Assembly (NCBI RefSeq): GCF_000315365.1
Contig: NZ_CAOS01000003.1
Span: forward strand, 496,001-560,000
Direction of reading: 5' to 3'
Origin: Desulforamulus hydrothermalis Lam5 = DSM 18033
GTDB taxonomy: Bacteria; Bacillota; Desulfotomaculia; Desulfotomaculales; Desulfotomaculaceae
Length of the DNA stretch: 64,000 nt
Part shown: one piece after another, positions 34,329-51,978 of the stretch
How positions within the stretch are numbered: the first letter of the stretch is position 1
Layout of the letters: every line of letters starts with the position of its first letter
The notes under the pieces: generated by a model
Told to the model about the DNA's origin: nothing
Seen by the model: only the letters and a program-made list of their open reading frames with translations
The model's database searches: none
Translations under genes and position numbers: made by a program

Positions 34329-35648
34329 ATGGCAGAACGTGAAGCGTGGTCAAGTAAAACCGGCTTTATTCTGGCCAGTGTAGGTGCCGCCATGGGGCTG
34401 GGGTCCATCTGGATGTTTCCCTGGCGTATTGGCGCTTACGGCGGCGGCGCTTTTCTGGTACCCTATTTCCTGTTCGTTTTTGTGCTGGGGGTAACCGGCC
34501 TGATGGGCGAATTTGCCTTCGGCCGCAGCCAGCAAAAGGGGGCTGTGTCAGCCTTTGAAAACGTCTTCCGGGAAAAGGGAAACGCCGGGCTGGGCCGTAC
34601 CCTGGGCATCATCCCCGTCCTGGGCGTGAGCGGTGTGTTTACCTTTTATCTCATTGTTTGCGGCTGGATTTTGAAATTTTTTTGGGTAGGCCGTAATGGG
34701 GCCTTTGGCCGGCATTGACCCGGGTCCTTTATTTCGGCGGTTTTGCCGGTCAAGCCGAAAGCATTTTCTGGCATGCTTTGGCACTGATACTCACGCTGGC
34801 TATTGTGATTAAAGGGGTTTCCGGCGGCATAGAGGCTTCCAACAAAATCATGATGCCCGGTTTGTTTATTATCCTGCTGATTTTGCTGGTGCGTTCTCTT
34901 ACCCTGGAAGGGGCCGCCAAAAGCATCCGGTTTTTTAACCCTGCCCGATTGGGCCAAAACTGGGCCAATCCCGTTACCTGGGTGCAAGCCCTGGGGCCAG
35001 GCCTTTTTCACAGTTTCTCTGGGCGGTGCGGCCATGCTGGTGTACGGCAGTTACCTGCGGGAAACGGAAGATATTCCCTCTTCCGCTGTGCACACAGCTT
35101 TCTGGACCACCGTTGCTTCGCTGCTGGCGGCCTTTGTGACCATTCCCTCGGCCTTTGCCTTCGGTCAGGATCCCCAGGCCGGCCCGCCGCTGCTGTTTAT
35201 CACTATCCCTTATATTTTTAAAACCATGACCGGCGGTTATATCTTTGGGGCCCTGTTCTTTTTGGCAGTGGTTTTTGCCGCCATATCTTCTGCCATCAAC
35301 CTGATGGAAGTACCGGTGGAAGCCATTATGGACCGCTTTAACATGAGCCGCATTAAGGCTTCGGTGCTGGTGGCGGTGCTGGGCTTTTTGGTGGGCATAC
35401 CGCTGGATATTAACTTAAACTTGTTCGGCAAGTTTGCCGACCTGGTAACCATATATATTGTACCTTTCGGGGCGGTGCTGGCATCCATTGTGTTCTTCTG
35501 GGTGTACGGCGTGGAACGGGCCCGTGCCCAGGTTAATAAAGGAGCCGTTAAGCCCCTGGGCCCCTGGTGGGGTTACCTGGCCAAGTATGTATTTACCGGT
35601 GTAGCCCTGTTTATTCTGGTCATGGGTATAGTCATGGGCGGCATTTAA
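34329..35648 (+). pseudogene. tnaT: Na+-dependent tryptophan symporter (SNF/NSS family), frameshifted
   Basis: The 1.32-kb region has the length (about 440 codons) and content of an NSS transporter: the N-terminal SSKTGFILASVGAAMGLGS, the middle GVSGGIEASNKIMMPG and a C-terminal part to residue GIVMGGI. Reading requires three frame changes: near 34689 (WV-A after removing one G), near 34729 (GP-YFGGFAG after removing one T) and near 34998 (ALGQAFFTVSLGGAAM after removing one G). Each is a single extra base in a short homopolymer. As written no functional transporter can be made. Position after tnaA fits TnaT. Either true decay or sequence error. Confidence 0.85.
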
Positions 35649-35808: not shown

Positions 35809-35837
35809 GTGTTAAACCACGTTTTCCGGTTTGCAAA

Positions 35838-37931
35838 TCGAGTAGAGTAACGCCGTAGTAATTTGCTACGGCGTTATCCCTCTCACAGAACCGTACGTAC
35901 GGGCCTCGTATACGGCTCCTGATAAACCTCAGTCATTTCTCCCAGAAATGATGCAAAATGCCGACACTATACTTAGTCAGGTCAATTAACCCCATTTCGT
36001 CAAACCACTTGTTGGGTAGGGCCATATTTATTAGCGGACTAGCCGAGTTTCTCCATCTTTGCATGGATATTTTCTCAAATGTCCCCTTATAACCCCGCCT
36101 TCTTAGTGCTTTGTGAAGTTGCTTCCAACTTTTCCATTCTCTCATTTGCTTCATTCGTAGTCGTCGCCTTATCCACTCCATGAGTTGCTCCACTATCTTC
36201 TTGCAGTTTGCCACTCTGAAGTAGTTGCTCCACCCTCTTAGCACTGGATTTAGCCTTCTTATCATTTCTTCAATGTTCATCCCGTGGTTTCTCGGTGTTA
36301 GTTTCTTGATTTTGTCTTTTATACTCTTGATCTTTTTAGGATTTATTGAGATAAACTTTGATCTAATGATAAAGCCTAGATAGGCAACTCCTTTACTCAC
36401 ATTTGTAATGTGTGTCTTCTCCCTGTTGACTGTTAATTTTAATTCGCCTTCAAGGATTTCTGTGGCTATCCGTTTATATTGCTTTGCTTCTTTGAGGGTT
36501 TTGCCGAATATGAGAATGTCATCGGCATAGCGAACGATGCGAATTCCTTTATTCTTCATGGCCTGATCAAAATGGTCTAGATATATATTAGTAAGCAACG
36601 GGGATATTACCCCGCCTTGCGGGCTTCCTAAATCTGTTCCTTCCCAGGCACCATCTTTCATTACTCCTGCAGTGAGGAATTTGCTTATCAGTTTTAGCAC
36701 TTTTCCATCACTGACTTTTCGGGCTACCCCTTTTAGTATTAGTTCATGATCCAGTCGGTCAAAGCATTTCGATAGATCCATGTCTACTACGTGTTCCAGC
36801 CCATATTTGTTAATAAACATCTCTGCCTTGGCTACTGCCTGATGGCAGGATCTATTTGGTCGGTACCCGTAGCTTGAGGGGTGAAAGTCTGGTTCGAATA
36901 TCGGTTGCAAAATGTTGAGTAATGCCTGTTGGACTACCCGGTCCTTTACAGTGGGTATACCTAGCGGCCGCTTACTTCCGTCCGGCTTTGGTATTTCCAC
37001 TCTCAGTACCGGTTGTGGTTCGTATGTGCCGGTTTTCAGTTCATAATGAAGTTGGCTTAGCCGTTCCTCTAGGTTCTCACCGTAGGCTTTCACGGTCACC
37101 CCGTCTGCTCCGGGGGCTCCTTTGTTTGCTCTCACGGCTTTGTATGCCTTTTCGAGGTTTTCAATTCGATAAACCTTGTCTATCAGGCTGTACCATTTCT
37201 TCATTATTTCACCTACTTTCGCTATGCTTCCTTGGTCTCTCCCAATTGTGTGACAGTCTCTTCTTGCAATTTCCCGGCGTTTCTAGCTCTGGGCAATCTT
37301 ACCTTGGATTTATTGCAATACTCTGTCTGGGCGGACGCTAAACCCAGCGAGTTCGTCACTCCCGATTCTAGCGTTCCTCTTGGCATTTCAGCCTTGATTG
37401 TCTTCCCTCTCACAGTTGCCAGATCCGTTAGTTGCATACTTTGGTTTATCTTCGTCCCTTCGCAGATCATAATGGCTTTTGGCTCATTATGGCTCATTGC
37501 AATTAGATGCAATGTCCCCTCAGTTTTGTCCTCAGGTCTGTTACCAGCCTTCATTGGCTGTGGGTTTATCGCTACTACGGACTCATCTGCCACCCAACAC
37601 CACGTCTTCTCTCCCTTGCGTTTCCGCTTGTTTGAGCTTACCTGCAGGGCAGGATGATATTGGGCTTCCCCGGTTAAGTTTGCTTGCCTGAACTTGAACG
37701 CATCCGTCCTAACCTTTCGAGTTATCCAGCTTTTGGGCTTTCCCATATATTGCAAGGTTACCCACTCGATAGGCCAACATCGGTTCGCTTTCGCTATGTT
37801 CCAAGTTCCCTCTTCAGCTTCCTTCAGACCCCACCGTTACCAGTGACGCCCTTGCCTACGAGTTGTCTTCCCGCTGGTTAGGTGACAGGGTTTCTTTCAA
37901 CCCATCGGCTCGGCAAACATGCCGGGCGAAC
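35838..37931 (-). mobile_element. Group II intron, class C
   Basis: On the minus strand the element starts at about 37931 with GTTCGCCCGGC, directly after a rho-independent terminator hairpin, the classic class-C target. It holds a reverse transcriptase/maturase gene (35933-37204) and ends with domain V (about 35880-35918; GAGCCGTAT ... ACGGTTCTGTGAGAG) and a domain VI hairpin (about 35848-35876; AACGCCGTAG / CTACGGCGTT). The 3' end near 35838 is approximate. The 37205-37931 stretch is the structured domains I-III and carries no separate gene. Confidence 0.88.
35933..37204 (-). CDS. ltrA: Group II intron reverse transcriptase/maturase
   Basis: This 423-residue protein contains the RT domain (blocks including PKPDGSKRPLGIPTVKDR, the catalytic YADD in RYADDILIF, and GSPQGGVISPLLTN) and the maturase X domain (RGWSNYFRVANCKKIVEQL). 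There is no C-terminal endonuclease domain, as expected for class C. It helps the intron fold and splice and copies it into new sites. Length is normal and no frameshift is seen, so the intron may still be active. Confidence 0.95.
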   Translation of the reverse strand: MKKWYSLIDKVYRIENLEKAYKAVRANKGAPGADGVTVKAYGENLEERLSQLHYELKTGTYEPQPVLRVEIPKPDGSKRPLGIPTVKDRVVQQALLNILQPIFEPDFHPSSYGYRPNRSCHQAVAKAEMFINKYGLEHVVDMDLSKCFDRLDHELILKGVARKVSDGKVLKLISKFLTAGVMKDGAWEGTDLGSPQGGVISPLLTNIYLDHFDQAMKNKGIRIVRYADDILIFGKTLKEAKQYKRIATEILEGELKLTVNREKTHITNVSKGVAYLGFIIRSKFISINPKKIKSIKDKIKKLTPRNHGMNIEEMIRRLNPVLRGWSNYFRVANCKKIVEQLMEWIRRRLRMKQMREWKSWKQLHKALRRRGYKGTFEKISMQRWRNSASPLINMALPNKWFDEMGLIDLTKYSVGILHHFWEK

Positions 37932-37959
37932 AATAAGGCACCGCTGCCACAGCGGTGCC
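37932..37959 (-). terminator. Terminator hairpin used as intron target
   Basis: GGCACCGCTG / CAGCGGTGCC with a 3-base loop, followed on the minus strand by TTATT and then the intron 5' end. Class-C introns are known to insert just after such stems. The gene it once terminated is not obvious. Confidence 0.75.
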
Positions 37960-38225: not shown

Positions 38226-39904
38226 TCACAACCCCCAGACGTCCTGCAGGCGCTCGGCCAACCAGCGGCGCAGGCGCTCGGCCGCCCCGGGACCGGGTAC
38301 CAGGCCAAGTTCGCCGCCCGTAGTGCGGCTGCGCCGGGCCGGGGGGTAGTAGTCATCCGGATAGACGGCCCAGGCCTCGCGCACAGGAAAGTCCCACTCA
38401 TCTTCGAACTGGTGGGGGGAGGTGCGGCTGCGGATAGTGTCGGTGTAGTATTGCTTTTCCTGCAGCTTACGCGGGTCGTGGCTGAAAGTAGCGTCCAAGG
38501 TAATGATCTCGGGCGTAGGCACACCGGGCGGGTAATATTCTATGGCCACGTCCGGACAGTCTTTGCACTGCCAGCTGCCAGCAATACGGTAGGGATATGC
38601 GCCCAGCAGCGCAGCCGGCGAATAATCCAGGCGGGGGTAATGGCGGGCGTACCAGACCAGCAGGTGCCCTCCCCTTTTGGCCTGCAGTTCCACCACACCG
38701 TTTTCCTTCAGGTTGTAATTGAAGCTTTCTTCATCCCCCACCAGTTGCGCCCCGTTTTTGACCAGCGGTACAAAGCCCAGTTCAACCAGTGCACGTACCA
38801 CACTCATAGCCACCCAGTATTCGTACAGGGTATTGATACTGCGGGTATGTACGGGCAGTGCCGCCTCATCCACCGCAATCACCTGGTCGGCCAGACGCAG
38901 GCCGGACTTAAGTCGCCGGGCCAGGCGGCGGGCCTGGCGGTAGAGCGGGTGCAACGTCTGGACGTCCCGGCTCTGGCACAGGGTGAGGACGGGCAAATAG
39001 CGCAAGAAGCTGCTCTGCATCAGGCCATCCATGGTGTTTTCCACTCCGGCCAGATACTGCACCCCACGCCGCGCCCGGGCAGCCTGTTCCAGCACCCACT
39101 CCCGAAATCCGCCCTTAAGCTCGGCTGCCCGGCGGGTCTGATGGGCGATCTCGGCAGCCAGCTGTTTCTTTAAGAGCGTGGCTTCCCGGCGCATTTGCCC
39201 CACCAGCTGAAGCAAAAAGCGGTTGTCCGGCGTGTCGTAGGAGACCACATTTTCCTCCACCGGCAGCAGGGCGGGTAAAAGCACCCGGTCGACCGGCCCA
39301 TCCAGCCACTGCCATTGCCCGGTTCGGCGGGCAGCTTGGTCCAGCATGTGTAGCGAAACACGCCCGGCCCTATGCAGCGGCTTGTGCACCGTAATCCGCT
39401 GTAAAGCGCGTTGCGGGTCGCGCTCAATGCGGCGGAAAAGGGGCAAAAACTCATCCACCACCCGGCGTAACACCTCAAAGCGGGCCGCGGCCGCACCGGG
39501 CGGCAAGTGACGGACCAGTTCCTGCAGATCCCGACCCATACCGTAAAAATCCAGCAAAGAAATATTTTGCACCGTCAGCTCATTGCGCATAAAATTGATT
39601 TGCTGAACCGTGAACTGCCTAACTAGAAAACGCACGGTGAAAACTTTATCCTTCAGCAGTTCCCCGCCGTAGGCCAGGGCCAGCTGGCTTTCGCCCAGGA
39701 ACTTTTGCCCGGCGTACTGCTGTACCTGTTCGCTCTCCGGACGCAACACACCGGGAGTGGCCCGGAAAAAGCGCAGCGGATACCCTCCCAGCCCGGGGTC
39801 GTAGTCCAAGAGCAGGTGTAGTTGGCTGGGATCCAATTCGCCTCCGGGTAGACAATCATAAGTGTGTTCAGGTCGGCCGCTTCAATTTCCGGCGGTTGCT
39901 CCAT
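38226..39904 (-). pseudogene. DUF2357 / McrC-like PD-(D/E)XK nuclease subunit, frameshifted near the N-terminus
   Basis: The main frame (38226-39836) encodes 536 residues with an N-terminal DUF2357 region and a C-terminal PD-(D/E)XK-like domain (CPDVAIEYY, then ITLDATFS, then KLQEKQYYTDT). The true start, at ATG 39904 with GGAG in front, is in another frame (MEQPPEIEAADLNTLMIVYP); adding one G near 39845 joins it to GGELDPSQLHLLLDYD. So as written the gene is broken by a 1-base deletion. The expected (D/E)xK lysine is Thr in LDAT, which may also abolish cutting. It is the nuclease partner of the McrB-like ATPase upstream. Confidence 0.75.
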
Positions 39905-39979
39905 ATCCACTCCGGTTACCGCTGGCCCAGCAGGTAGACCTGTACTTCCTGCAGCGCCGCCGTCAGCCAGTGCGGCAGC

Positions 39980-41851
39980 TCAGATCTGGCCAAGGATGAA
40001 TTCCTCCTCCCTCACCCGCTCATTCAGGCGCTCCACATATTCGCGGCACTGCGGAAAGGCCGTTTCCTCGGCGCCGGGCAGCTTTTCGTCCTCGAAAAAG
40101 CCCAACAGCTGCGCCACCATGTCGGTGTCCGCCCGGCGACTACGGGCCACCTGCAGTTTGGCAAGCACCTTCTGCTTGATCTGGTAGTCCAGGGCAGTGT
40201 AAAAGCCAAAGGCAGCGCTGGTCAGGGCATAGTCCACCCAGCGGATGATCTCGGTGGCCGTGCGGTAACCGAACTGCTGGTCGGCGGCGCGTAAAATGTT
40301 GTTGATACGGCTCAAATAGTCTACCAGCAGGTGGGCTGATTCTTTATTGACCAGGGGCGGCTGCCAGTATTTAAACAATTCTCCCAGGGACTTTAAATCA
40401 ATTTCCTCCAGTTTGATAAAGTTGGAGCGATCCAGCACCTTGTCGCTAAAGGTGTGGGTGGTCTCGTCAATATTCACCGTGCCCGTGATGGACAGATTAG
40501 GCGGTACAGTCACCTCCCGGGGAAAGCGGGGATCCTCCACCGGGTGGTCGTAAAAGCGGATGCACCGCATTTCAGGCGGCAGCTCCATCTTGCTCAAAAA
40601 GTCGGAAAAGTAGTACTCCACCCGAGCTAGGTTCATCTCGTCCAGCAACACCATGTACTGGCGGGGTTGGCGGCTTTGCTGCTTCGCCAGCTTGCATTCC
40701 CGCTGCGCCGCCAGCAGGAACTCGCTGAAGGGCGTGGGTACAAAGGAATTTTGCAAAATGTTGTAGGCACCCAGCAGGCTCTCATTGCTGGTCCAATCGG
40801 GACGCACAGCCACGGGTAAAAGCTCGGCACCGGTAGCCCGGGCATAGGTGAGTACCAGTCGGGTTTTGCCACCACCCGAAATGCCGGCCAGAATAACAAA
40901 GGGTTTGGTCTTTAAACTAATGTGGTAGCGTTTAATAAGGCCGTCGGAATAATACAGACCGGCCGCCCGGGCTTCATCCTGCACCCTAGCCACCACCTCC
41001 TGCAGGGAGCGCTGTTCTTCCTCCAGCACCCTGCCCTGCACCTGAATAGCGGCCGGCGGCGCGACAGACACCACCCCGCCCGCTGTCTTTCCGCCAGTGG
41101 CCAGGCCAGGCGAGCCCCCTTTACCCGTTCGGGCGGCTAATGAACCCGCTTTGGTGCTACCGGAGGCCACGGCCGACCCGACAGACGCACACGCCATGTC
41201 CAGGCCGGTGGGAGTGTCGAGAGCCAGCTGCTCCAGCAGTTCGCGCAGTTTAAGCAGAATTTTCTCCCGCTCTTGGCGCAGGCCGGGCTCCAGATTCATA
41301 CGGGCAAAGACCTCACTGTACATGTCAATTAATATACCCAGGCCGGTGGCCACATAGTTGCGATTAACCCGATGGCAGACACCCCGGCTGCCTTCGGTGT
41401 GGTGCCAGAGAAAATCGTTGTCCTGGCGCGGGTCGGGGAAGCGCAGGGCCCAGCCTTCCAGGGGAGTGAAGGTGTATTCCCAGTCGTCGCCGCTGTAGCC
41501 TACCAGATACCTGTCCACCTGGCCTACCACATATAAGCCGGTAAGGATGTTGCGCCGCCCGCTGCTGGTATAGAAAAAGACCAGCGGGTTTTGCCCCTGC
41601 TTGCAGGCTTGGTACAGCTCAGATACATATCCATCAACATCCACATCACGTCCCCGCTTGTAAAAGGAGGGATGGGCCACATCAAACAGACCCATGTCGT
41701 AGCATTGCTTGATCTGACGGGCACAGTAGTTGGCCCGGAAGTTGGCTGTGGCACCGCAGTCGTGCTTGCGCGGGTTGTCACAGATATTGCCGTCGTAGGC
41801 GCGGTTGTGATTGTTCACTTTCATGATAAGGCAGTTTTCCACCGAGATCAT
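39980..41851 (-). CDS. McrB-like AAA+ ATPase with unrecognised N-terminal domain
   Basis: Motor subunit of a modification-dependent (type IV, McrBC-like) restriction pair. The 623-residue protein has a Cys/His-bearing N-terminal domain (about 1-190) that I cannot name, a low-complexity Gly/Ala/Ser linker, and a McrB-type AAA+ domain: Walker A GISGGGKTR, Walker B MVLLDEMNLAR, and the McrB-type segment GTVNIDETTHTFSDKVLDRSN. The N-terminal domain is where such systems read modified DNA. ATG at 41851 follows AAAGGAG. The end is probably truncated: removing one G near 39988 extends the product by RSELPHWLTAALQEVQVYLL and stops at 39916, just before the DUF2357 start. Confidence 0.8.
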   Translation of the reverse strand: MISVENCLIMKVNNHNRAYDGNICDNPRKHDCGATANFRANYCARQIKQCYDMGLFDVAHPSFYKRGRDVDVDGYVSELYQACKQGQNPLVFFYTSSGRRNILTGLYVVGQVDRYLVGYSGDDWEYTFTPLEGWALRFPDPRQDNDFLWHHTEGSRGVCHRVNRNYVATGLGILIDMYSEVFARMNLEPGLRQEREKILLKLRELLEQLALDTPTGLDMACASVGSAVASGSTKAGSLAARTGKGGSPGLATGGKTAGGVVSVAPPAAIQVQGRVLEEEQRSLQEVVARVQDEARAAGLYYSDGLIKRYHISLKTKPFVILAGISGGGKTRLVLTYARATGAELLPVAVRPDWTSNESLLGAYNILQNSFVPTPFSEFLLAAQRECKLAKQQSRQPRQYMVLLDEMNLARVEYYFSDFLSKMELPPEMRCIRFYDHPVEDPRFPREVTVPPNLSITGTVNIDETTHTFSDKVLDRSNFIKLEEIDLKSLGELFKYWQPPLVNKESAHLLVDYLSRINNILRAADQQFGYRTATEIIRWVDYALTSAAFGFYTALDYQIKQKVLAKLQVARSRRADTDMVAQLLGFFEDEKLPGAEETAFPQCREYVERLNERVREEEFILGQI

Positions 41852-42097
41852 AACAGATGGCTCCTTTCCGGGCGACGCCCGCCGGGTTTTTAGCACAAAG
41901 CATTAAGGCATATATGGTTCTACTGCAAAAAGAGGCTTTTTTTCTTCTCATTTTCCTTTTGCAAAAATTGCTTTTCCAGTAATATTATCGTTAATTTTTT
42001 CAATATAATAGTTGAATTTTTTCTCTGTATGGCCGACAAATCCTTTGGATTATTTGTTGTAAATGCTCAAAGGTATAAAAATTATTAATAATTACTG

Positions 42098-42195
42098 CGT
42101 CAATTTGAAAATATTGTTGTGCCATTGCAGATGGAATGCAGTCATTAGGGCCTTCACTGAAAAACTAAAATCTTTGGAAAACAAAAAAACACCCT
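42098..42195 (+). pseudogene. Relic of a large serine recombinase C-terminal region
   Basis: About 50 bases (including GAAAATATTGTTG and GCCATTGCAGATGGA) match the recombinase fragment at 51470-51520, and with two frame corrections the sequence continues as the family pattern LKSLENKK. Only a scrap of coding sequence remains. The rest of 41852-42313 is AT-rich and holds nothing else I can support. Confidence 0.6.
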
Positions 42196-42313
42196 GGAGA
42201 GTCGCATATTAAGCAGCAAGAACAAATTATTTAATTTGAAAATATAATTGCAAGTTTTCGGTACTTGTTTGGCAGCAAAAATTTACAAAAAAAGAACTGA
42301 CAAAAAGTCAGCC

Positions 42314-42652
42314 CTATACTCCTATCAGTTTTTTCATTACTTTGATTTCCCTTTTATTCTGTGCGGTATCTTCTTTTAAAATATCCACATCTGCAATTAA
42401 GTAGGGTAATTTTCCGTTAATATCATCAAGGCAGTTATTCACCTTTGCAAATTCCACTCTGACTTCCTTCTGGAATTCCTTGGTTTCTTTTGAGTCAGCT
42501 AGAAGCTCTAAAGCAGCGGTCTCCAGACGGTTGAAGCGTTCCTGATTTGCCCTCTCCATCTGCTCCAGTTTAGAGTCAATTACTTCTAATTTCGAGGGTA
42601 TCCCTTCTAAAAGCTCCAGCTTTCCAAGAATCTGCTTTAATAGTTCTTCCAT
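42314..42652 (-). CDS. Small coiled-coil protein, unknown
   Basis: This 112-residue protein is predicted to be almost entirely helical, with heptad-like hydrophobic spacing (LLKQILGKLELLEGIPSKLE, then LEQMERANQERFNRLE) and a basic end (KREIKVMKKLIGV). It resembles short coiled-coil proteins of Clostridia and phages but no named family is recognised. ATG at 42652 follows AGAGGTGG. It lies between the McrBC-like pair and the Wadjet operon, so a defence role is possible but unproven. The stretch 42653-43027 upstream shows no further gene. Confidence 0.6.
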   Translation of the reverse strand: MEELLKQILGKLELLEGIPSKLEVIDSKLEQMERANQERFNRLETAALELLADSKETKEFQKEVRVEFAKVNNCLDDINGKLPYLIADVDILKEDTAQNKREIKVMKKLIGV

Positions 42653-43027
42653 TTAGCACCACCTCTTAATAGTAATTATATCAGCCGGAGCCAGCTTACG
42701 CCAGTCCCAGCTCCTTCTGACATGATATCCGCAGTCTTTAATTATCCTCTCTGATTTGCCCTCTGCCTTCTTTCCGTAACAAAATCCAATGACACTGTTC
42801 TGCTTTCTTACAACCGACCCTGGCTAGGCAGTGTCGTTACCGGGTTACCGGACTATCTTCGGCCAACACCACAAAGGCAATGTGCTTGCAGATCACCTGG
42901 CGGCGCATGTTACAATTGTTGAATAACCCAAGGCCCTTTAATATTTTCTTAGCAATACATAACAAAAGGGTTTTTATTAACCAGGTAGAAATATTGTCAA
43001 AAATAATATATTTTGAGGTTTTATTGC

Positions 43028-44515
43028 ATGAATAACAACTTATTGAAACCAATTGTTGAATTAAGTTATTTAAACGCTCAAAATGTTGACCGTTATCGTT
43101 GTATTATGAGATGCTTTTACGAGCGCCACCGGCGACTACAATATTGGCTGCGGCCGGAAGAAGTATACAAAGGCGTCTTATCTTACGGGTTGCTGGAAAA
43201 TTATACGATGGAACAATGCCAGCAGGACCTCAATCAGTTAGTGGAGTGGAAAAACCTTGTTCCCCAACACGATGGCGGCCGCTCTACCACTGTGGAAGAA
43301 TACTTGCGTAAAAAATTTCGTTATATGATGACACCTTACTCCGTGGAGATTGAACGACTGGTGGTAAACCTGGAGAACATCCGGGGCTACGGTGGCTCAC
43401 TGGAGCCTTCCCTTTTCGAGAGCATCGCCTTGTCACTGCAAAAAATGAAGGAACTCCCCCCGGAAATTACTCCCCAAGAAGCCCTGGCCCTGTGGGAAAA
43501 TATTTACGAAACCTTTACCAAGCTTACCGAAAACGCTGCCGACTATATTGCCAGCCTGCAGAGCAGCAAAACCGAAGAACTAATGCAAACGGAAGCCTTT
43601 TTGGCCTATAAAAATTCTGTTACCGGATACTTACAGGGTTTTGTCCAGGGCCTGCAGCGCCATGCCTATCGCATTGAAGGACTCCTCCCCCTGTTCCAGC
43701 CGGAATTTCTCAGGGATTTCTTTCATAATGTACGTGATGCTCTGGCCTCTCGCCCCCAATTGGATGAGCCGGTAACTCCGGAAGAATACATGCACCGCTT
43801 GCAGACCCAATGGCACAGCCTGAACCGTTGGTTTCTTGGTGAACCCGGCGAAAAAAGTGACGTTTATTATTTGGAGCAAACCACCAAAGATACCATTGCC
43901 CGCATTGTGCGGGCCGCCCTGCGGATTCAGGAAAGACGCCGTTCCGGCATCAGCCGGCGGCGGGAACTGGACTACCTGGGACAGTGGTTTTTCTCCCTGA
44001 CTTCCATCGAGGAGGCTCACCGACTGGCTGCCTACGCCTTTGGCCTGTACCGCTGCCGCCACTTTCAGGGAGAGGATGATAAGGATACCGAATCTACCGA
44101 TATCTCCATGTGGCAGGCCGGCCCCAACATTCGCGGTTTGCGTTCCCGCAGCCGGAAAAAAGGCCGTAGCTCCGGCCCGGACCCGGTGAAAAGCCAGCAC
44201 ACACGGCAACAAAGGGCTAAGGAAGAATACCTGGCTCAGCAGCAACGGCAGGCAGAATTGCTGCAAAAATTTCTGGCCCAGGGGACTGTAACCATTTCCG
44301 ATTTAGACACTGTCCCCGCTGCCACCAGGCAAGTGCTGCTTAGCTGGATCGGCCTGTGTCTGGCCAATAAGTCCAGGCAAATCCGCACACCGGACGGCAT
44401 CGAAATCAGCCTCCTACTGCCGGATCACCGACAGCGCACCATTTTGCACTGTGAAGACGGGGAGCTGGATATGCCCGACTATACCCTTTACTTCCGCCCA
44501 ACCGGCGACCAATAA
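43028..44515 (+). CDS. jetA: Wadjet type II subunit JetA (DUF2397, TIGR02677)
   Basis: Kleisin-like subunit of the SMC-type anti-plasmid complex. The 495-residue protein has winged-helix and long helical segments and the family C-terminus (LSWIGLCLANKSRQIRTPDG ... YTLYFRPTG). In Wadjet the JetABC complex extrudes DNA loops and hands small circular DNA to JetD for cutting (established for the system). ATG at 43028 with GAGG 9 bases upstream. First gene of a tight four-gene operon; 24 bases to jetB. Residue composition is normal and the frame is intact. Confidence 0.9.
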   Translation: MNNNLLKPIVELSYLNAQNVDRYRCIMRCFYERHRRLQYWLRPEEVYKGVLSYGLLENYTMEQCQQDLNQLVEWKNLVPQHDGGRSTTVEEYLRKKFRYMMTPYSVEIERLVVNLENIRGYGGSLEPSLFESIALSLQKMKELPPEITPQEALALWENIYETFTKLTENAADYIASLQSSKTEELMQTEAFLAYKNSVTGYLQGFVQGLQRHAYRIEGLLPLFQPEFLRDFFHNVRDALASRPQLDEPVTPEEYMHRLQTQWHSLNRWFLGEPGEKSDVYYLEQTTKDTIARIVRAALRIQERRRSGISRRRELDYLGQWFFSLTSIEEAHRLAAYAFGLYRCRHFQGEDDKDTESTDISMWQAGPNIRGLRSRSRKKGRSSGPDPVKSQHTRQQRAKEEYLAQQQRQAELLQKFLAQGTVTISDLDTVPAATRQVLLSWIGLCLANKSRQIRTPDGIEISLLLPDHRQRTILHCEDGELDMPDYTLYFRPTGDQ

Positions 44516-44539
44516 CCAGCAGAAAAGAAAGGGAAGCAC

Positions 44540-45718
44540 ATGGCCCGTATAGCCCGTAATAATCAGGAAGAAATAAAGAATTGTTTTATCGCCTTGCTCA
44601 ACCGCCCCTGGGTGACCAAGGCGGATGACCCGGAATTATACCAGAGCATTCGCAGTCATTACCAGGAGCTCAGGGACTGGTTTCAAGAATATTGCGGTTT
44701 CAGCCTGCTGTTAACGAGGCAACTGGCCAGGCTGGAGAAATTTCCCGGCCAAGCCCATGCCTGGATGGGTTTGGAATTATTCAGTGACCCATTGGACTAT
44801 ACCCTTTTTACCTATTGTCTCTGGTACCTGGAAGGTAAAAATGAAACAGACCAATTTTTGCTCACCGAAATGATTGAAGAAATCAAAAACCATTTGATCG
44901 GCTCCCAGGTATCGCTGGATTTTACCATGTACCACCACCGTCAATCCATGTATCGGGCCCTTAAACAGTTAAAGACACTTAAGGTACTGGTGGCGGTGGA
45001 CGGGGATGAAGCGGAATGGGCCCGGGTAGGTAACGACAAAAACGTTCTCTACGAGTGCTCCCCTTTATCCCGCTATGTACTCCGGCATTTTCCGCAGGAT
45101 TTGACCACCTATCAAACTCCGGCATCCCTGGGGGAATTAGCTTATCCCGATGACCAGGAAGGACAAGTTCGCCGACGCCGACACAGGGTTTACCGCAGGC
45201 TGCTGCAGGAACCGGTGGTGCACGACTGGGAATGGAGCCAGGATGAACGCTATTACGTACTGACCCAGCGACATACCATCCTGGAACACCTGTCCGCTCG
45301 CTTTGGTCTGGAAGGCCGGCGTTACCGGGAAGGATTGATCTTTTTTCACCCCGACCACTCGGCAGAAATAGAACTTTTCCCCACCGCCAAAAACATCTCC
45401 GATCTGGTATTGCTGCTGGCAGGAGAAATCCGTCGCCTGCTGAACCAGTCGGATACCGGCATTTATACAGATGAACGCGGGTGTATCCCGCTGACCCTGG
45501 CGGAGTTGGAGGGACTGCTGCTGCGCCTGAGGGAAAGACACAAATCACTATGGAGCCAGCAATTGCGTCAAGCCAAGAGCAATGAACTGGCCCAGGAAAT
45601 ACTGGCGCACTTAACCGATTGGGGTCTGGCTACGGTAAATTCAGAGCAAATAATTTTACTTAACCCGGCCCTGGGCCGTTGGAACGGAAATTATCTAACA
45701 GATGAGGATGAGGAATGA
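44540..45718 (+). CDS. jetB: Wadjet type II subunit JetB (DUF2398, TIGR02678)
   Basis: KITE-like subunit binding the kleisin JetA. The 392-residue protein has the TIGR02678 pattern: an N-terminal helical domain (LLTRQLARLEKFPG), a mid region with YTLFTYCLWYLEG, and an acidic C-terminus. It probably forms tandem winged helices. ATG at 44540 follows AAGGGAAG. Its stop codon overlaps the jetC start by 4 bases (ATGA), so it is translationally coupled to jetC. The gene is intact. Confidence 0.9.
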   Translation: MARIARNNQEEIKNCFIALLNRPWVTKADDPELYQSIRSHYQELRDWFQEYCGFSLLLTRQLARLEKFPGQAHAWMGLELFSDPLDYTLFTYCLWYLEGKNETDQFLLTEMIEEIKNHLIGSQVSLDFTMYHHRQSMYRALKQLKTLKVLVAVDGDEAEWARVGNDKNVLYECSPLSRYVLRHFPQDLTTYQTPASLGELAYPDDQEGQVRRRRHRVYRRLLQEPVVHDWEWSQDERYYVLTQRHTILEHLSARFGLEGRRYREGLIFFHPDHSAEIELFPTAKNISDLVLLLAGEIRRLLNQSDTGIYTDERGCIPLTLAELEGLLLRLRERHKSLWSQQLRQAKSNELAQEILAHLTDWGLATVNSEQIILLNPALGRWNGNYLTDEDEE

Positions 45719-48700
45719 TGCGCAACCGCTGGCAAATGAATCTGGCCGGTATTTTTAATTTCTGGTATTACACCGATGAAGTTCAGTTTAAGTTAAGCGA
45801 TGGCCGCCTGGTCCTGCGGGGGGCCAATGGTTCCGGCAAATCCGTAACCATGCAAAGCTTTTTGCCGCTGGTGCTGGACGGCAATAAACGCCCTTCCCGT
45901 TTAGATCCCTTTGGTTCCAAGGATCGCAAGATCGACTATTACCTGCTGCTGGAGCCGGATAGCGGTATTCAAGACCGGATTGGTTATCTTTATCTGGAAT
46001 TTTATCACCCGGAACAACAGCGCTACCTTACTATTGGTATTGGGCTTAGGGCCCGCCGCAATGCCAACACCGGTTTCTGGGGCTTTGCCATCACGGATAA
46101 CCGTCGCATCGGCAAAGATATTCTGCTTTATGAAAGGGACTACAGCCAAGGACAAGAGCAAAAGATCCCTCTCACCCGTTCCCGGTTGGAGGATGTCATC
46201 GGCGAAGGCGGACAAGTGGTCACCGAGCAAGGTAAATATATGGAAATGGTCAACAAACTGCTCTTTGGCTACGGCGATTTACAATCCTTCCAGGAGCTGC
46301 TGGACTTGCTGATTCAACTTCGCAGTCCAAAACTGTCCAAGGATTTCAAACCCACCACCATTTATGAAATATTAAGTAACGCCCTGCCTCCTCTGCAGGA
46401 TGATGAACTGCGCCCGCTGTCGGAAGTCATGGAGGATATGGACCAGATTAACGACCGCCTGGAGGAGGTCTGCCTGCACCGCCGGGAAGCAGAAAAACTC
46501 CAGCAGGTGTATAACCGCTACAATAAATACCTGCTCTACCACCAGTCCAGCCAACTGCTGCAGGCCAAAAGGCAGTGGGACAACCAGCAGAGCAGCACCC
46601 AGGAACTGGAGGCTAAACTGCAAGAGATCTCCCGCTCTTTACAGGAACGAAACGAGCGACTAACAGAACAATCCACCAAACTCCTGGAGGTTAATGCCCG
46701 GCACCAAGTGCTTGCTGCCTCGGAGGTGCTGGAAAAACGGCATGAACTAAACCGGCTGCGGGAGGAAAAAGAGAGAACCAACCGGCAGGCCGAACGGCTG
46801 GCCAAAAGCCTGATGTACTGGCAAGGTAAACAAAAGGAATACCGGCGGGATCAAGAGAAGTACACCGCTGAAGCGGCGGAATATACCACCAGGCAGCAGG
46901 CGACCCTGGCTGATTTAGAAGACATTGCCCGGGAATTTGATTTTTCCCGGCATGATGTGTACCACCGCCGGTGGGATCGGGATATGCCCCGGGAATTCAA
47001 TCAGTGGCACAACTGGCAGCAGGATTTGTCCGAACAGGAGCGGCAAATTAACCAAGCGCTGGAAATAGCCCGTCGGGTGGATCACAAAAAGTATGAGCGG
47101 GATCTGGCGGAGCGGGAAGTGGGTAATGCCCGTCAGCGGCGGGATACCGCTGAAGAATCCTACCGCTTTGAAGAAGAAAACTGCGACCTGGTGCAAAAAT
47201 CCTACCAAGAACAAATCTTTGCCTGGCGCAAAAATTTACTGGAACTTCATCTTAGCGATGAGGAACTACAAAAAACTCTGCACCGCCTCTCCCTGTTCCC
47301 GGAAGTCTCCTACGAATCCATCAAGGAACCAATGCTGGAGGCCTTCGACCACCGTTATTTGGATTTGCAAAAACAAAAGGTGGCACTGGAGCAACAAAGA
47401 GACCGACACCAGGAAGAACAGAATCAACTCCGGGCAGCCTGGCAGGAATGGAAAAACCATAAGGAGCCGGAACCGCCCCGTTCCGCCGCCCGGGAGCTGT
47501 CCCGCCGCCAGCGCGGCGAAGGTGCCCCCCTCTATGCACTATGCGAGTTTCGCGAAGGGGTTAGCGAAGAACTTAAAGCCTCCCTGGAAGCGGCCCTGCA
47601 GCAAAGCGGGTTACTGGATGCCTGGGTCAGCCCCCAGGGACTGGGTATCCTGGGGACTAATGAAGAGGAAATCTGGATTGCTCCTAATCCACAATTCTTT
47701 GGTTACACCCTGGCTGATTACCTGTACCCCACTCCCCCGGAGGATGGCTCGCTGAAAGCTGAAATCATTGACCAAATCCTCCGCACCATCAGCCTGGGAG
47801 ACATCAGCAGCGGGGATAATGTGGGTGCCGCCGTTAACGAGCAGGGCTATTTTCGCCTGGGAGCCCTTTGCGGCAAGGCGGCGGCCAAGGAACGGGCCGA
47901 ATTTATCGGTAAAGAAACCAGACACCGCACCCGGCTGGCCGAAATGGCCCGGCTGGAGGCGCTGATGGAACAAGAACAGCAAAATATTGATGATTGTAAC
48001 CGGCAAATCCACCGGATCGAGGAGGCACTGACCCGACTGACCCAGGAAAAATCCTGCTTCCCCGCCGGTGATGAACTGCAAGAAGCCTTCTCCAGATTGG
48101 CCCAGGCCAGGAGAGAAATGGAGTCTGCCCTGGAGGAAGAAAGACAAAAGGTGGAACTTTTCCGCCAAGCATCCCAGGCCTATCAGGAGACTGCAGCCGA
48201 ACTGCACACCTTCATGCAGGGTTGGACCATTCCTAAAAATACCGCCGGCCTGACCGCTGCCCGGGATCAACTGCAAACCTATCGCCAGCTGCTTGGTGAA
48301 CTGCATTCCCACTGGTCCAGCTACTGCATGAGCCAGGCAGCTTTAGACCGGGCCCTGGCTGGATTGGCCGAAGCAGCAGAAAAGATTGCCGAGGAAACCG
48401 ATGAACTGGCGTCCCTGCGAGAAACCTTACACCAAATTAACGCCCAAATCTCAGCCTTTGAACAAGCCCTTAAAGATTTGGGCATTGAGGATATCGACCG
48501 GCAACTAAGAGAACTGGAGCAGCAACGGGATGCATTGCAAAGGGAAATTAATGCCCTGGATAAAGAAATTCGTCAGCTAGAAAAAGAGCAGGGCATCGAG
48601 GAAAGCAGGCTGTCCGCTGCCCGGGAACTGTTAAAAGAAAAAGAAACTGCCCTTAACCAGGCTCGGCAGGCCTGGCTCTGCGAATGGAACCGGCGGTTGG

Positions 48701-49800
48701 TGGCAGATTGGTCAGAAGTCACCGTTTCCGAAGCCAACCTGCCCGGTTTATACCGTGTGGCTCAGCAGGTGCTGCAACAATATCGGGATGAAAAATACCT
48801 TCAGAAGAGCAAGGATAGCATTACCAACGACCTGTTTCTGGCCTTCCAGGAATGCCGCGGCAATCTGCACCCCTACGGACCTGAGCTGATGCTGGACGAA
48901 GAGCACCGGCGGAACCTGGTGCTGTTTATGCGGGACCGGCATAATCCCTTGCCACCCCAGGCCCTGGTACAGGAACTGAAAACCACTGAGGAAGAGCAGC
49001 GATTGCTTTTAAGCCAAAAGGACCGGGAACTGTATGAGCAGATTATCATACACAGTGTAGGGAAAGCCATTCGCTATAAAATACTGCGGGCCGAACAATG
49101 GGTGCAGCAAATGAACCGGCTGATGGAACAGCGGGATACCTCCAGCGGCCTGCGCTTACACCTCAAGTGGGAACCCAGGCCGGCCGCCAATGAAAAGGAA
49201 CTGGATACCCTCCAGCTGGTTAATTTATTAAAGAAAGACCCCCAAATGCTGCGAAATCAGGAAATAGAACAAATGATTGAACACTTTCGCTCCCGCATCA
49301 CCTGGGCCAAACAGGAGGCAGACCAGCATGATACCCTGCGCCAGTGGATTTACCGACTGCTGGATTACCGGGAGTGGTTCCGGTTTACCCTCTATTATGA
49401 AAAGGGCGAGCAGTCTCGCAGGGAACTTACCGACAGCCGTTTCAATGCCTTAAGCGGCGGTGAAAAGGCCCTGTCTATGTACATCCCATTGTTTGCCGCC
49501 ACCTATTCCCGCTACAACGACTGTCGACCGGAAGCCCCCAAAATTATTTCCCTGGACGAAGCCTTCGCCGGTGTTGATGATGAAAACATGCGGGATATGT
49601 TTGGGCTGTTAACCCAACTGGATTTTGATTACATGATGACCAGCCAGGTTCTGTGGGGTTGTTATGATACAGTACCAAAGCTGTCGGTTTATGAAATCTA
49701 CCGTCCCAAAGATGCCAGGTTTGTGACCTTGATTCAGTATTACTGGAACGGCTTCCGGCGTATGCTGGTGGATGAAAGTATGGTGGAGGAGAATGCTTGA
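45715..49800 (+). CDS. jetC: Wadjet type II subunit JetC (SMC-like ATPase, TIGR02680)
   Basis: Motor of the Wadjet complex. The 1361-residue protein has an N-terminal ATPase half (Walker A GANGSGKS, G36 to S43), a very long coiled coil (about 230-500 and 750-1100, rich in Glu/Gln/Arg/Leu) with a hinge-like globular part around 590-720, and a C-terminal ATPase half with the signature LSGGEKALS (about 1245) and Walker B KIISLDEAFAGVDD (about 1275-1288). All ATPase motifs are intact. Overlaps jetB by 4 bases and jetD by 8. Confidence 0.95.
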   Translation: MMRNRWQMNLAGIFNFWYYTDEVQFKLSDGRLVLRGANGSGKSVTMQSFLPLVLDGNKRPSRLDPFGSKDRKIDYYLLLEPDSGIQDRIGYLYLEFYHPEQQRYLTIGIGLRARRNANTGFWGFAITDNRRIGKDILLYERDYSQGQEQKIPLTRSRLEDVIGEGGQVVTEQGKYMEMVNKLLFGYGDLQSFQELLDLLIQLRSPKLSKDFKPTTIYEILSNALPPLQDDELRPLSEVMEDMDQINDRLEEVCLHRREAEKLQQVYNRYNKYLLYHQSSQLLQAKRQWDNQQSSTQELEAKLQEISRSLQERNERLTEQSTKLLEVNARHQVLAASEVLEKRHELNRLREEKERTNRQAERLAKSLMYWQGKQKEYRRDQEKYTAEAAEYTTRQQATLADLEDIAREFDFSRHDVYHRRWDRDMPREFNQWHNWQQDLSEQERQINQALEIARRVDHKKYERDLAEREVGNARQRRDTAEESYRFEEENCDLVQKSYQEQIFAWRKNLLELHLSDEELQKTLHRLSLFPEVSYESIKEPMLEAFDHRYLDLQKQKVALEQQRDRHQEEQNQLRAAWQEWKNHKEPEPPRSAARELSRRQRGEGAPLYALCEFREGVSEELKASLEAALQQSGLLDAWVSPQGLGILGTNEEEIWIAPNPQFFGYTLADYLYPTPPEDGSLKAEIIDQILRTISLGDISSGDNVGAAVNEQGYFRLGALCGKAAAKERAEFIGKETRHRTRLAEMARLEALMEQEQQNIDDCNRQIHRIEEALTRLTQEKSCFPAGDELQEAFSRLAQARREMESALEEERQKVELFRQASQAYQETAAELHTFMQGWTIPKNTAGLTAARDQLQTYRQLLGELHSHWSSYCMSQAALDRALAGLAEAAEKIAEETDELASLRETLHQINAQISAFEQALKDLGIEDIDRQLRELEQQRDALQREINALDKEIRQLEKEQGIEESRLSAARELLKEKETALNQARQAWLCEWNRRLVADWSEVTVSEANLPGLYRVAQQVLQQYRDEKYLQKSKDSITNDLFLAFQECRGNLHPYGPELMLDEEHRRNLVLFMRDRHNPLPPQALVQELKTTEEEQRLLLSQKDRELYEQIIIHSVGKAIRYKILRAEQWVQQMNRLMEQRDTSSGLRLHLKWEPRPAANEKELDTLQLVNLLKKDPQMLRNQEIEQMIEHFRSRITWAKQEADQHDTLRQWIYRLLDYREWFRFTLYYEKGEQSRRELTDSRFNALSGGEKALSMYIPLFAATYSRYNDCRPEAPKIISLDEAFAGVDDENMRDMFGLLTQLDFDYMMTSQVLWGCYDTVPKLSVYEIYRPKDARFVTLIQYYWNGFRRMLVDESMVEENA

Positions 49801-51082
49801 CTATTTGCGCCAGCCTTGTTTTGAGAAACTGTTTAACCTGGCCAGGAAAAAGATCCAATCCTTAAACGGTCTCCGGGGTACGGTTACTCTGGACAACCTT
49901 TCCCCGGTGGACCAGGACCTGATCAGCGGTTTTCTGGGCAAGAACTGTTTGGGGCGGACCAGGCTAAAAATCCCTTTGCATGAAATAGATGAGGTTCTGA
50001 AAAACAGCCCCCTGGAAATGGGACTATACCCTTTCCTGGAACTATATTTTAATGAAAGAATTCTGACCAGCCAGGAAATTTACGCAACCCGGAAATACCG
50101 TTGGTCCCGGTTTTTTGCCCAACTGCAAGAACAAGCCCAAACCCCGGTAACCCAAGACTGGTTGGCTCAACTTTGGCAAGGGACCGGCAGAGGCTACCGC
50201 ACCCTGCTGGCCCTATACCAGGATAACCCGCAGGCTGCCCTTGATGAGGCTTTCATCTGCGTAAAAGCACTGGATTACTTAGCCACCCATCCCGGTGAGA
50301 ATTTACGCATTCCTGTTTTTGCCGCCAAATTAACCGGTGACCCCCATGCCCTGGACCTGGAAAACTCGTTGGGGCGGCTACTTTATTACGGTCTGCTGCA
50401 CTTCTTGGACAAGCCGGAAACAGACTATACTGCCGAAGGAAAGCGCACCCTGTTCCGGGAGGCCGGGCTTTTGGACGATGATGTTTCATCCAATGTGCTG
50501 GCAGCCGGCCTGCGCGTATGCCAGGCTGACCCCAGGTTTACCGTTTTTGATGTGGCCAATGCCACCGGCAGCCCTTTAATTTTACCCCTGCGCTTTCTGG
50601 CAATGCCCACCCGCTGGCAACCCGGACAAAAAATTTATATGACGGAAAACCCGGCGGTATTCAGCACCATTCTGGATGTCTGCCCTGCTGCTTTCTTACC
50701 CCCAATCATCTGCGGCAGCGGCCAGCCCAGTGTGGCGGCCCTCACCCTGTTAGACCAACTTGTCCAAGCCGGATGCATTATTTGCTACAGCGGGGACTTT
50801 GACCTCAAAGGACTGGAAATTGCCATCCGCCTGGCTCAGCGCTATAAACAAAATTTTCGGCCCTGGTGTTATGATAATGAAACCTACCTGGGGGTACCCC
50901 ACGGCAAACCGGCGGCTGCCAATCAAATAAACAACCTGAGAAAGCTTGATGTCCCTTGGGACAAGCAATTGGTTCACCGCATGTCAGAGAGAAAGTTGTT
51001 CGTTTACCAGGAATCCTTTATAGATAAACTGATAAACCAATTCAACAACCGGCACCTAAAGCTCGCCATCACCAAAGAGTGA
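49793..51082 (+). CDS. jetD: Wadjet type II nuclease subunit JetD (DUF2399, TOPRIM)
   Basis: Topoisomerase VI-like nuclease that cleaves the DNA extruded by JetABC. The 429-residue protein has an N-terminal DNA-binding region and a C-terminal TOPRIM domain. The acidic residues look intact: E285 in YMTENPAVF and D335/D337 in SGDFDLKG. ATG at 49793 follows GGAGGA and overlaps the end of jetC by 8 bases. No inactivating change is seen, so the whole JetABCD set appears functional. Confidence 0.92.
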   Translation: MLDYLRQPCFEKLFNLARKKIQSLNGLRGTVTLDNLSPVDQDLISGFLGKNCLGRTRLKIPLHEIDEVLKNSPLEMGLYPFLELYFNERILTSQEIYATRKYRWSRFFAQLQEQAQTPVTQDWLAQLWQGTGRGYRTLLALYQDNPQAALDEAFICVKALDYLATHPGENLRIPVFAAKLTGDPHALDLENSLGRLLYYGLLHFLDKPETDYTAEGKRTLFREAGLLDDDVSSNVLAAGLRVCQADPRFTVFDVANATGSPLILPLRFLAMPTRWQPGQKIYMTENPAVFSTILDVCPAAFLPPIICGSGQPSVAALTLLDQLVQAGCIICYSGDFDLKGLEIAIRLAQRYKQNFRPWCYDNETYLGVPHGKPAAANQINNLRKLDVPWDKQLVHRMSERKLFVYQESFIDKLINQFNNRHLKLAITKE

Positions 51083-51182
51083 ACCATAAGAAGCACGCCG
51101 GGGGGCATCTGTTAATGTACAACAGCAGTGATTTATACTGCCGCCGCTCCCACCCGCTCATCGCTATAGGTGCTGTACAGGC

Positions 51183-51238
51183 AATAATAAAAGCCGGAAT
51201 TGCTTATTTTATTACAGTAATCCGGCTTTTATTATATT
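51183..51238 (+). terminator. Terminator of the jetABCD operon
   Basis: AATAATAAAAGCCGGA (51183-51198) pairs with TCCGGCTTTTATTATATT (51221-51238) with an inner AATTGC... loop; a T-rich tail follows. It lies 100 bases after the jetD stop. Confidence 0.8.
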
Positions 51239-51254
51239 GTTCCAATACCTACCT

Positions 51255-51283
51255 GGGGTGTGTAAATATTTTCGTGTAAATGG
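51255..51283. repeat. Solo insertion-sequence end (IS256-type terminal repeat, probable)
   Basis: GGGGTGTGTAAATATTTTCG followed by TGTAAATGG resembles the terminal inverted repeat of IS256-family elements, which contain repeated TTTACAC motifs. No transposase gene or partner end is next to it, so it would be a leftover end. Confidence 0.4.
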
Positions 51284-51314
51284 TTTTGGTCCTTTTAGAT
51301 AAAACCGGGGCTAA

Positions 51315-51650
51315 TTGGAATATGTTTTAAAAAAACTCAAGCAAGACATTTTCAGTGATGAAACTAAGCCAAAGTTAGCTAAAAAGCTTTATGACTTTTA
51401 CTCAAATAGTAAGAAAGCAGCAGCTGGTGAAGGGGATTATTTAAAAAAGGAATTAGCCGAGGTTGACCGTCAAATTGAAAATATTGTTGATGCCATTGCA
51501 GATGGAACTGCAGTCGTTCGGGGTGATGATCCGCTTGTGGTCAAACAAGTAATCGAACGATTTGTTAAAAAAGCCATAATAAAAACAGACACCATCGAAG
51601 TAAATCTCATGGTGTCTGTGCATACGACTGGTGGAGGCGGGGGGAGTTGA
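51315..51650 (+). pseudogene. Large serine recombinase, C-terminal fragment reading into ssrA
   Basis: The open frame encodes 111 residues that match the C-terminal coiled-coil and tail region of large serine recombinases (KLYDFYSNSKKAA, DRQIENIVDAIADG, VVKQVIERFVKKAIIKTDTI). The catalytic N-terminal domain and the recombinase core are missing. The last codons (VHTTGGGGGS) are encoded by the 3' end of the tmRNA gene on the other strand, overlapping it by 22 bases. This is what is expected if the element had integrated at the ssrA 3' end. Not functional as a recombinase. Confidence 0.75.
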
Positions 51651-51978
51651 ACCCACCGTCCGAAAGAGCAACCACAACAGGCTCTACGAGCGTAGACTAT
51701 GCTTTAGATTTCGCTCCGTTGGCGGCCACAGTCAGCCTCCGCTGTCGCTATCCCGGCAGTCTTAGCTATAGCCCTCCGGGAGGCAGGCTATAGAGCATCC
51801 CGCTGATGTGACCCCCTAATCCCGCACCGCGGGCGCAGCAGGTAGGAGGTTAGCTGAATTAAGCAGCTAAAGCGTATTCTTCGTTGGCAATTATTGTTTG
51901 TTCACCGTTTTACGGGCTGGTGAGATCCCGGCTCGCTCCTCTTGCCATTGCATCCCCCGTCGAAGCCATTTCGCCCCC
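51629..51978 (-). ncRNA. ssrA: tmRNA (transfer-messenger RNA)
   Basis: The minus-strand 5' end GGGGGCG pairs with CGCCTCC before the encoded CCA at 51629-51631, forming the tRNA-like acceptor stem; GGTTCAACTCC is the T-arm region. The tag reading frame (51859-51888) reads GCC AAC GAA GAA TAC GCT TTA GCT GCT TAA, i.e. ANEEYALAA, a Clostridia-type degradation tag ending in LAA. Length is 350 nt. It lies 38 bases after smpB on the same strand, the normal partner order. Confidence 0.96.

Follow-up and report, generated by a model that had tools for sequence, protein, structure and literature searches.

A complete type II Wadjet operon beside ssrA and between remnants of large serine recombinase genes in Desulforamulus hydrothermalis

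Introduction

The closest described counterparts of the locus studied here are genomic islands of Dehalococcoides. In the available part of the 2011 report (PMC3146451), 31 islands lie at ssrA, the tmRNA gene, and 16 of them carry a module with the serine recombinase DsiB as its integrase; the DsiB gene always overlaps attL at its 3' end and has its stop beyond the island edge, even in ssrA. The same text describes tandem islands, islands without an integrase, and cargo with a history of its own. A second report, as excerpted (PMC10061031), mentions an earlier observation that ssrA harbours islands with a large serine recombinase (LSR), which the ssrA islands of C. difficile and C. perfringens likewise carry. 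Most elements of its set carry conflict genes, for example restriction-modification genes, and the excerpt does not mention Wadjet. A further source, in its consulted section (PMC4383910), states that tRNA genes are not among the known targets of serine integrases, which means that the point is not universally recorded.

According to the accessible portion of PMC10586767, Wadjet is a nuclease for circular DNA which plasmids larger than about 100 kb, or linear ones, escape, and most work on it concerns type I. Deletion of jetABCD and plasmid transfer are reported for Clostridium cellulovorans in the part of PMC12287153 at hand. The sections of the ssrA-island literature that we consulted do not mention Wadjet at ssrA. 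Here we describe such a locus in a stretch of 64,000 bp (the window, C3:496001-560000 of the 2.69-Mb genome G000) and compare it with its relatives.

Results

The window holds a complete type II Wadjet operon at 43028-51082, in which jetA, jetB, jetC and jetD are adjacent in that order and all four reading frames are uninterrupted.

jetA, 43028 to 44515, plus strand: DUF2397 protein (TIGR02677), 495 aa
jetB, 44540 to 45718, plus strand: DUF2398 protein (TIGR02678), 392 aa
jetC, 45715 to 49800, plus strand: MukB-like SMC ATPase (TIGR02680), 1361 aa
jetD, 49772 to 51082, plus strand: DUF3323/DUF2399 protein (TIGR02679), 436 aa

The original prediction had named these four genes as a complete type II Wadjet operon with overlaps or short gaps, and the coordinates agree: jetA and jetB are 24 bp apart, jetB and jetC overlap by 4 bp, and jetC and jetD overlap by 29 bp, or by 8 bp if jetD starts at the internal ATG at 49793. 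A search with the NCBIfam profiles and their curated cut-offs assigned all four proteins as predicted, JetA to TIGR02677 (337.7 bits, cut-off 165.85), JetB to TIGR02678 (246.9 bits, cut-off 124.65), JetC to TIGR02680 (916.4 bits, cut-off 462.85) and JetD to TIGR02679 (224.6 bits, cut-off 196). The top PADLOC models were JetA2, JetB2, JetC2 and JetD2, and Pfam returned DUF2397, DUF2398, SbcC_Walker_B, and DUF3323 with DUF2399, respectively. The chains named JetA, JetB and JetC in PDB entries 9qe0/9qe1 match the corresponding window proteins nearly end to end; JetD had no match in the PDB at an E-value of 0.01.

The motifs listed in the prediction are also in place. JetC has an intact GANGSGKS at residue 36 (G36-S43), LSGGEK at 1246 and LDEAF at 1280, to which we presumptively assign the ATPase roles. 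JetD has E292, D342 and D344, numbered from the ATG at 49772, which are the acids previously given as E285, D335 and D337 in a count from Met8; they lie inside the DUF2399 match (residues 280-422), and we take them to be the TOPRIM acids and to act as such. The operon resembles type II Wadjet in families above the cut-offs, gene order and motifs, and no protein difference was found. As a system it is an ordinary further type II Wadjet; the setting alone differs. A promoter and terminator scan found sites no more numerous than in shuffled sequences.

The setting is made up of the following features.

Relic 1, 42098 to 42257, plus strand: LSR gene fragment with several small gaps
IS256-family-end-like remnant, 51260 to 51320, strand unassigned: between the operon and relic 2
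Relic 2, 51318 to 51650, plus strand: 3' part of an LSR gene that has lost 147 bp in frame and extends into ssrA
ssrA (tmRNA gene), 51629 to 51978, minus strand: attachment site

That the operon lies between two serine-recombinase relics, the second abutting ssrA, had been proposed before, and alignments to the LSR gene of the congener G001 bear it out. G001 has an uninterrupted LSR of 511 aa with Resolvase, Recombinase and Zn_ribbon_recom domains, ending inside ssrA. Relic 1 is 84.7% identical to part of its gene, and relic 2, which is the 3' third, is 97% (51318-51522) and 99% (51523-51650) identical to it, lacks 147 bp (49 codons) of it and stops in frame 19 bp inside ssrA; both matches far exceed chance. 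An LSR gene reading into ssrA is thus present within the window as remnants only. Relic 1 matches a part of the gene that overlaps the part kept in relic 2, and the two relics are differently diverged and read in the same direction, which fits two successive elements, from which we infer that they may stem.

The edges of the presumed island are unequally preserved. attL is present at ssrA: 51523-51650 matches the junction of LSR gene and ssrA in G001 at 99% identity. A search of the window for attR returned only the ssrA copy and four 2-mismatch hits when the core was allowed up to 2 mismatches, and only the ssrA copy and one 3-mismatch hit when the predicted arm was allowed up to 3. Since attR was not found, we class the window as a remnant of an ssrA serine-integrase island. 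Nor was the left island edge found in the window; the segment 26079-30364 is conserved in congeners and lies far from ssrA in G003 and G004. To the right of the operon, 51260-51320 has a 97% match in G020, and 51253-51320 has a 91% match in G024, next to a transposase-like ORF that we take to be the end of an IS256-family transposase. The right edge of the operon in the window is probably an IS edge. Just left of the operon, a 40-bp stretch (42859-42898) also occurs in several relatives, inside small ORFs that by eye have a SWIM-like cysteine motif; it is a gene remnant.

We surveyed the 3' flank of ssrA in 40 of 41 genomes (G018 has no tmRNA above the cut-off), with flanks of up to 3.6 kb in the relatives, shorter at contig ends, and with four LSRs as queries (from G001, G005, G008 and G020). 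LSRs akin to the two relics sit at the ssrA 3' end of relatives: in 15 of the 40 genomes we found an LSR match or remnant directed into ssrA, with its end no more than 200 bp away, a count that leaves out G031, which is remnant-like by eye, and no LSR match lay on the opposite strand of these flanks. In G000, G001, G003, G007, G008, G020, G024 and G027 the open frame closes with GGGGGS at 19 bp inside ssrA, so that its final codons and its stop come from the tmRNA gene; in G033 a frame ends at the same point with no LSR match. Genome-wide, the G001 LSR has a match of at least 40% identity at an E-value of 1e-40 in 11 of the 41 genomes, G001 included, and in ten of these 11, again with G001, this match lies at ssrA. 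The exception is G030, where no tRNA, tmRNA or Rfam match was found in 6 kb around the LSR. Two weaker matches (27% and 33%) are not at ssrA.

The relative G005 preserves a full set of attachment sites, and with the LSRs that read into ssrA in relatives this upholds the prediction that serine-recombinase elements integrate there. The exact 14-mer TGGTGGAGGCGGGG occurs three times in G005: in attL, where it follows the LSR 3' end and continues into ssrA; in an attP form, where it again follows the LSR 3' end and leads into other DNA; and, 22,775 bp away, in attR, between different DNA and the DNA that follows the attP form. In the attP form the core lies within a perfect 14-bp inverted repeat and the LSR ends GGGGAYRAISTVPKRT. 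In the assembly attL and the attP form are joined through Ns, as would result from scaffolding a circular form with an integrated one. Streptococcal ICEs with serine integrases that target rumA likewise have direct repeats in the target and the integrase gene, according to the excerpted text of PMC4701971, although rumA is a protein gene, unlike ssrA. Elsewhere the exact 14-bp core is confined to its ssrA copy in nine of the 11 genomes searched, among them G001, G007, G008, G020 and G024, which have uninterrupted LSRs yet one core copy each. Second core copies in G003 (670647) and G037 (C35:6290) were rejected as att sites because their flanks are unrelated, which leaves G005 with the only full att set.

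Related LSRs also occur at 38 viral loci, of which we examined 35 after dropping three partial ones (L170, L179 and L180). At 16 of the 35, some of them near-duplicates, TGGTGGAGGCG is found no further than about 105 bp from where the LSR match stops; one of these has a recognisable tmRNA there, and four others carry a tRNA gene there or no more than 50 bp away. At L152, L156, L164 and L168 the LSR reaches, or stops shortly ahead of, a tRNA gene (Leu three times, Gly once). Relatives of the window-type LSR may use tRNA genes as well.

The operon is present in three of the nine genomes of the genus (G000, G002 and G003) and absent from the other six. All three copies are situated 3' of ssrA and oriented toward it, at a distance of 0.55 kb in the window, about 9 kb in G003 and about 4 kb in G002, where the operon is divided between two contigs. 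Window positions 42954-51255 are 98.1% identical to G003 over 8.3 kb (94.6-100% in 300-bp bins), whereas the flanks are 78% identical on the ssrA-smpB side and 82% on the HppA side. The dS values between the two genomes are 0.026-0.088 in the operon and 0.65 in HppA. An operon so similar in a neighbourhood so diverged, with dS far below that of HppA, points to recent sharing by transfer, and a recent exchange between species, that is, horizontal arrival, is well supported. We rejected vertical inheritance of the copy in G000 and G003 from the time of their species split, as dS of jetA-D is 7 to 25 times below that of HppA, and local gene conversion is disfavoured by the 98% block, which reaches the ends of homology without a diverged shoulder. 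The G002 operon is 76-79% identical to the window copy, with a dS of 1.2-1.5 against 0.83 for HppA and with other core genes partly saturated in dS; given these values, this copy may have descended vertically. Composition is uninformative on the origin of the operon (GC 52.3%, window 53.4%).

Against G003, dN/dS is 0.10 for jetA, 0.09 for jetB, 0.11 for jetC and 0.31 for jetD, and against G002 the jet genes give 0.06-0.15. These low values fit selection on function, and the operon would be expected to have anti-plasmid activity. Judging from its family, JetABC would extrude DNA loops, and once the motors had exhausted the DNA on a small circle, JetD would cut it.

Beyond the genus, a JetC match at an E-value of 1e-100 was found in 17 of 113 genomes of the order. 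G057, of another family, has a Wadjet operon (JetC 76%) nearly as close to the window copy as that of G002 is, at 0.99 Mb of a 4.86-Mb contig with ssrA at 4.37 Mb. Three relatives with an uninterrupted LSR at ssrA, G005, G007 (72% complete) and G008, have no JetC match at an E-value of 0.001, and the sole match in G001 (38%) is on a contig other than that of its uninterrupted LSR. In G024, which is not of the genus, an uninterrupted LSR stands at ssrA and a Wadjet lies at another place. No LSR was found near the other Wadjet loci with the G001 LSR as sole query, many of the loci having 1.5 kb of flank; this query is insensitive, as it missed the G003 remnant that the G008 LSR detects.

Discussion

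With its precedents in Dehalococcoides and the Clostridia, the ssrA serine-integrase setting is of a known kind; it is real and already described in other bacteria. Going by the available text of PMC3146451, the Dehalococcoides islands are alike in the end of the integrase gene, with its stop inside ssrA, and share tandem islands, variable cargo and loss of the integration module. They differ in that they belong to another phylum, carry reductive dehalogenases and two CRISPR modules as cargo and have a second, small serine recombinase, DsiA; the likeness to DsiB is drawn from its description. What the present locus adds is the extension of such islands to this order, probably with an anti-plasmid system among their cargo, and a clean case of a type II Wadjet that passed recently between species and lies near ssrA in three of them. 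If Wadjet rides such islands, a destroyer of small circles would owe its spread to elements with a circular stage of their own.

How the operon reached ssrA is less clear than that it was transferred. We consider it reasonably probable that LSR elements entered at ssrA in succession, an older one leaving relic 1 and a younger one relic 2, that one of these brought the operon along as cargo, and that an IS insertion and deletions afterwards removed the mobility genes. The original prediction had the operon arriving on, or captured by, an element integrated at ssrA; the horizontal arrival stands, whereas the relic-2 element is only a candidate carrier. A recombinase trace accompanies the operon in G003 and G002 as well, so that neither presents the case named as refuting the original prediction, but the remnants are closest to three different LSRs, that of G001 in the window, of G008 in G003 (68% over 60 aa) and of G005 in G002 (79% over 24 aa), and one carrier does not fit all three loci. 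These differences, the missing attR and the IS edge make carriage by an LSR element less than certain, though it is the most likely reading.

The same observations give some weight to the alternative that the operon moved by another route, an IS256-type IS or homologous recombination after DNA uptake, with the LSR relics as bystanders at a much-used site. The IS256-like end at the right edge, the different LSR remnants beside the same operon, the failure to find attR in the window and the G057 Wadjet far from ssrA speak for it. A single IS end was seen, however, with none at the left edge of the operon, and the location near ssrA in all three operon-bearing congeners would have to be a coincidence or a site preference of the other mechanism; we regard this route as possible but unlikely.

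It is improbable that the genus ancestor already had the operon at ssrA and that most members lost it, the 98% identity to G003 reflecting a later replacement: the shared place and orientation in G000, G002 and G003 and a G002 copy about as diverged as core genes would fit, but six of the nine genomes lack the operon, the whole of it would need replacing given the absent shoulder, and G057, in another family, is nearly as close as G002.

Returning to carriage by LSR elements, one may ask whether Wadjet guards the docking site, destroying circular rivals among the ssrA elements before they integrate and hence persisting while integrases decay. The G005 element would form a circle of about 23 kb, within the size range that Wadjet cuts, and in the genus the three genomes with Wadjet near ssrA hold LSR remnants only, against an uninterrupted LSR at ssrA in four of the six without this Wadjet. 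The sample (three versus six genomes) is far too small and G024 has both an LSR and a Wadjet, and we consider such a guard very doubtful.

Other ssrA neighbourhoods and the rest of the window hold further features. A catabolic cluster, which we assume to be hydantoinase-like, lies beside ssrA in G003 (L055:17889-19439 with L056:1-6497) and in G011 of another family (L139:1901-10518), the two being 71-75% identical in matching pieces. This apparent further ssrA-linked cargo fits a hotspot but does not reveal a site vacant of the operon. G038 (C33:157324-157616), G028 (C55:3756-4003) and G032 (C1:4098153-4098473) each have a further tmRNA match, weaker than the true ssrA and about 4.5 to 7.5 kb away from it; these may be displaced pieces left by islands. 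In the window, a minus-strand pair at 38226-41896 encodes an AAA_5 protein (PADLOC PDC-M26A, E-value 1.3e-49) and a DUF2357 protein with a PD-(D/E)XK_7 match below the cut-off; the pair, presumably McrBC-like, is a candidate second defence system beside relic 1. Further left, sodium:neurotransmitter symporter sequence extends over two overlapping frames at 34715-35648, probably a broken gene, and 35837-37932 is a group II intron that contains an ORF for a reverse transcriptase/maturase and shares 96% identity with a G001 copy.
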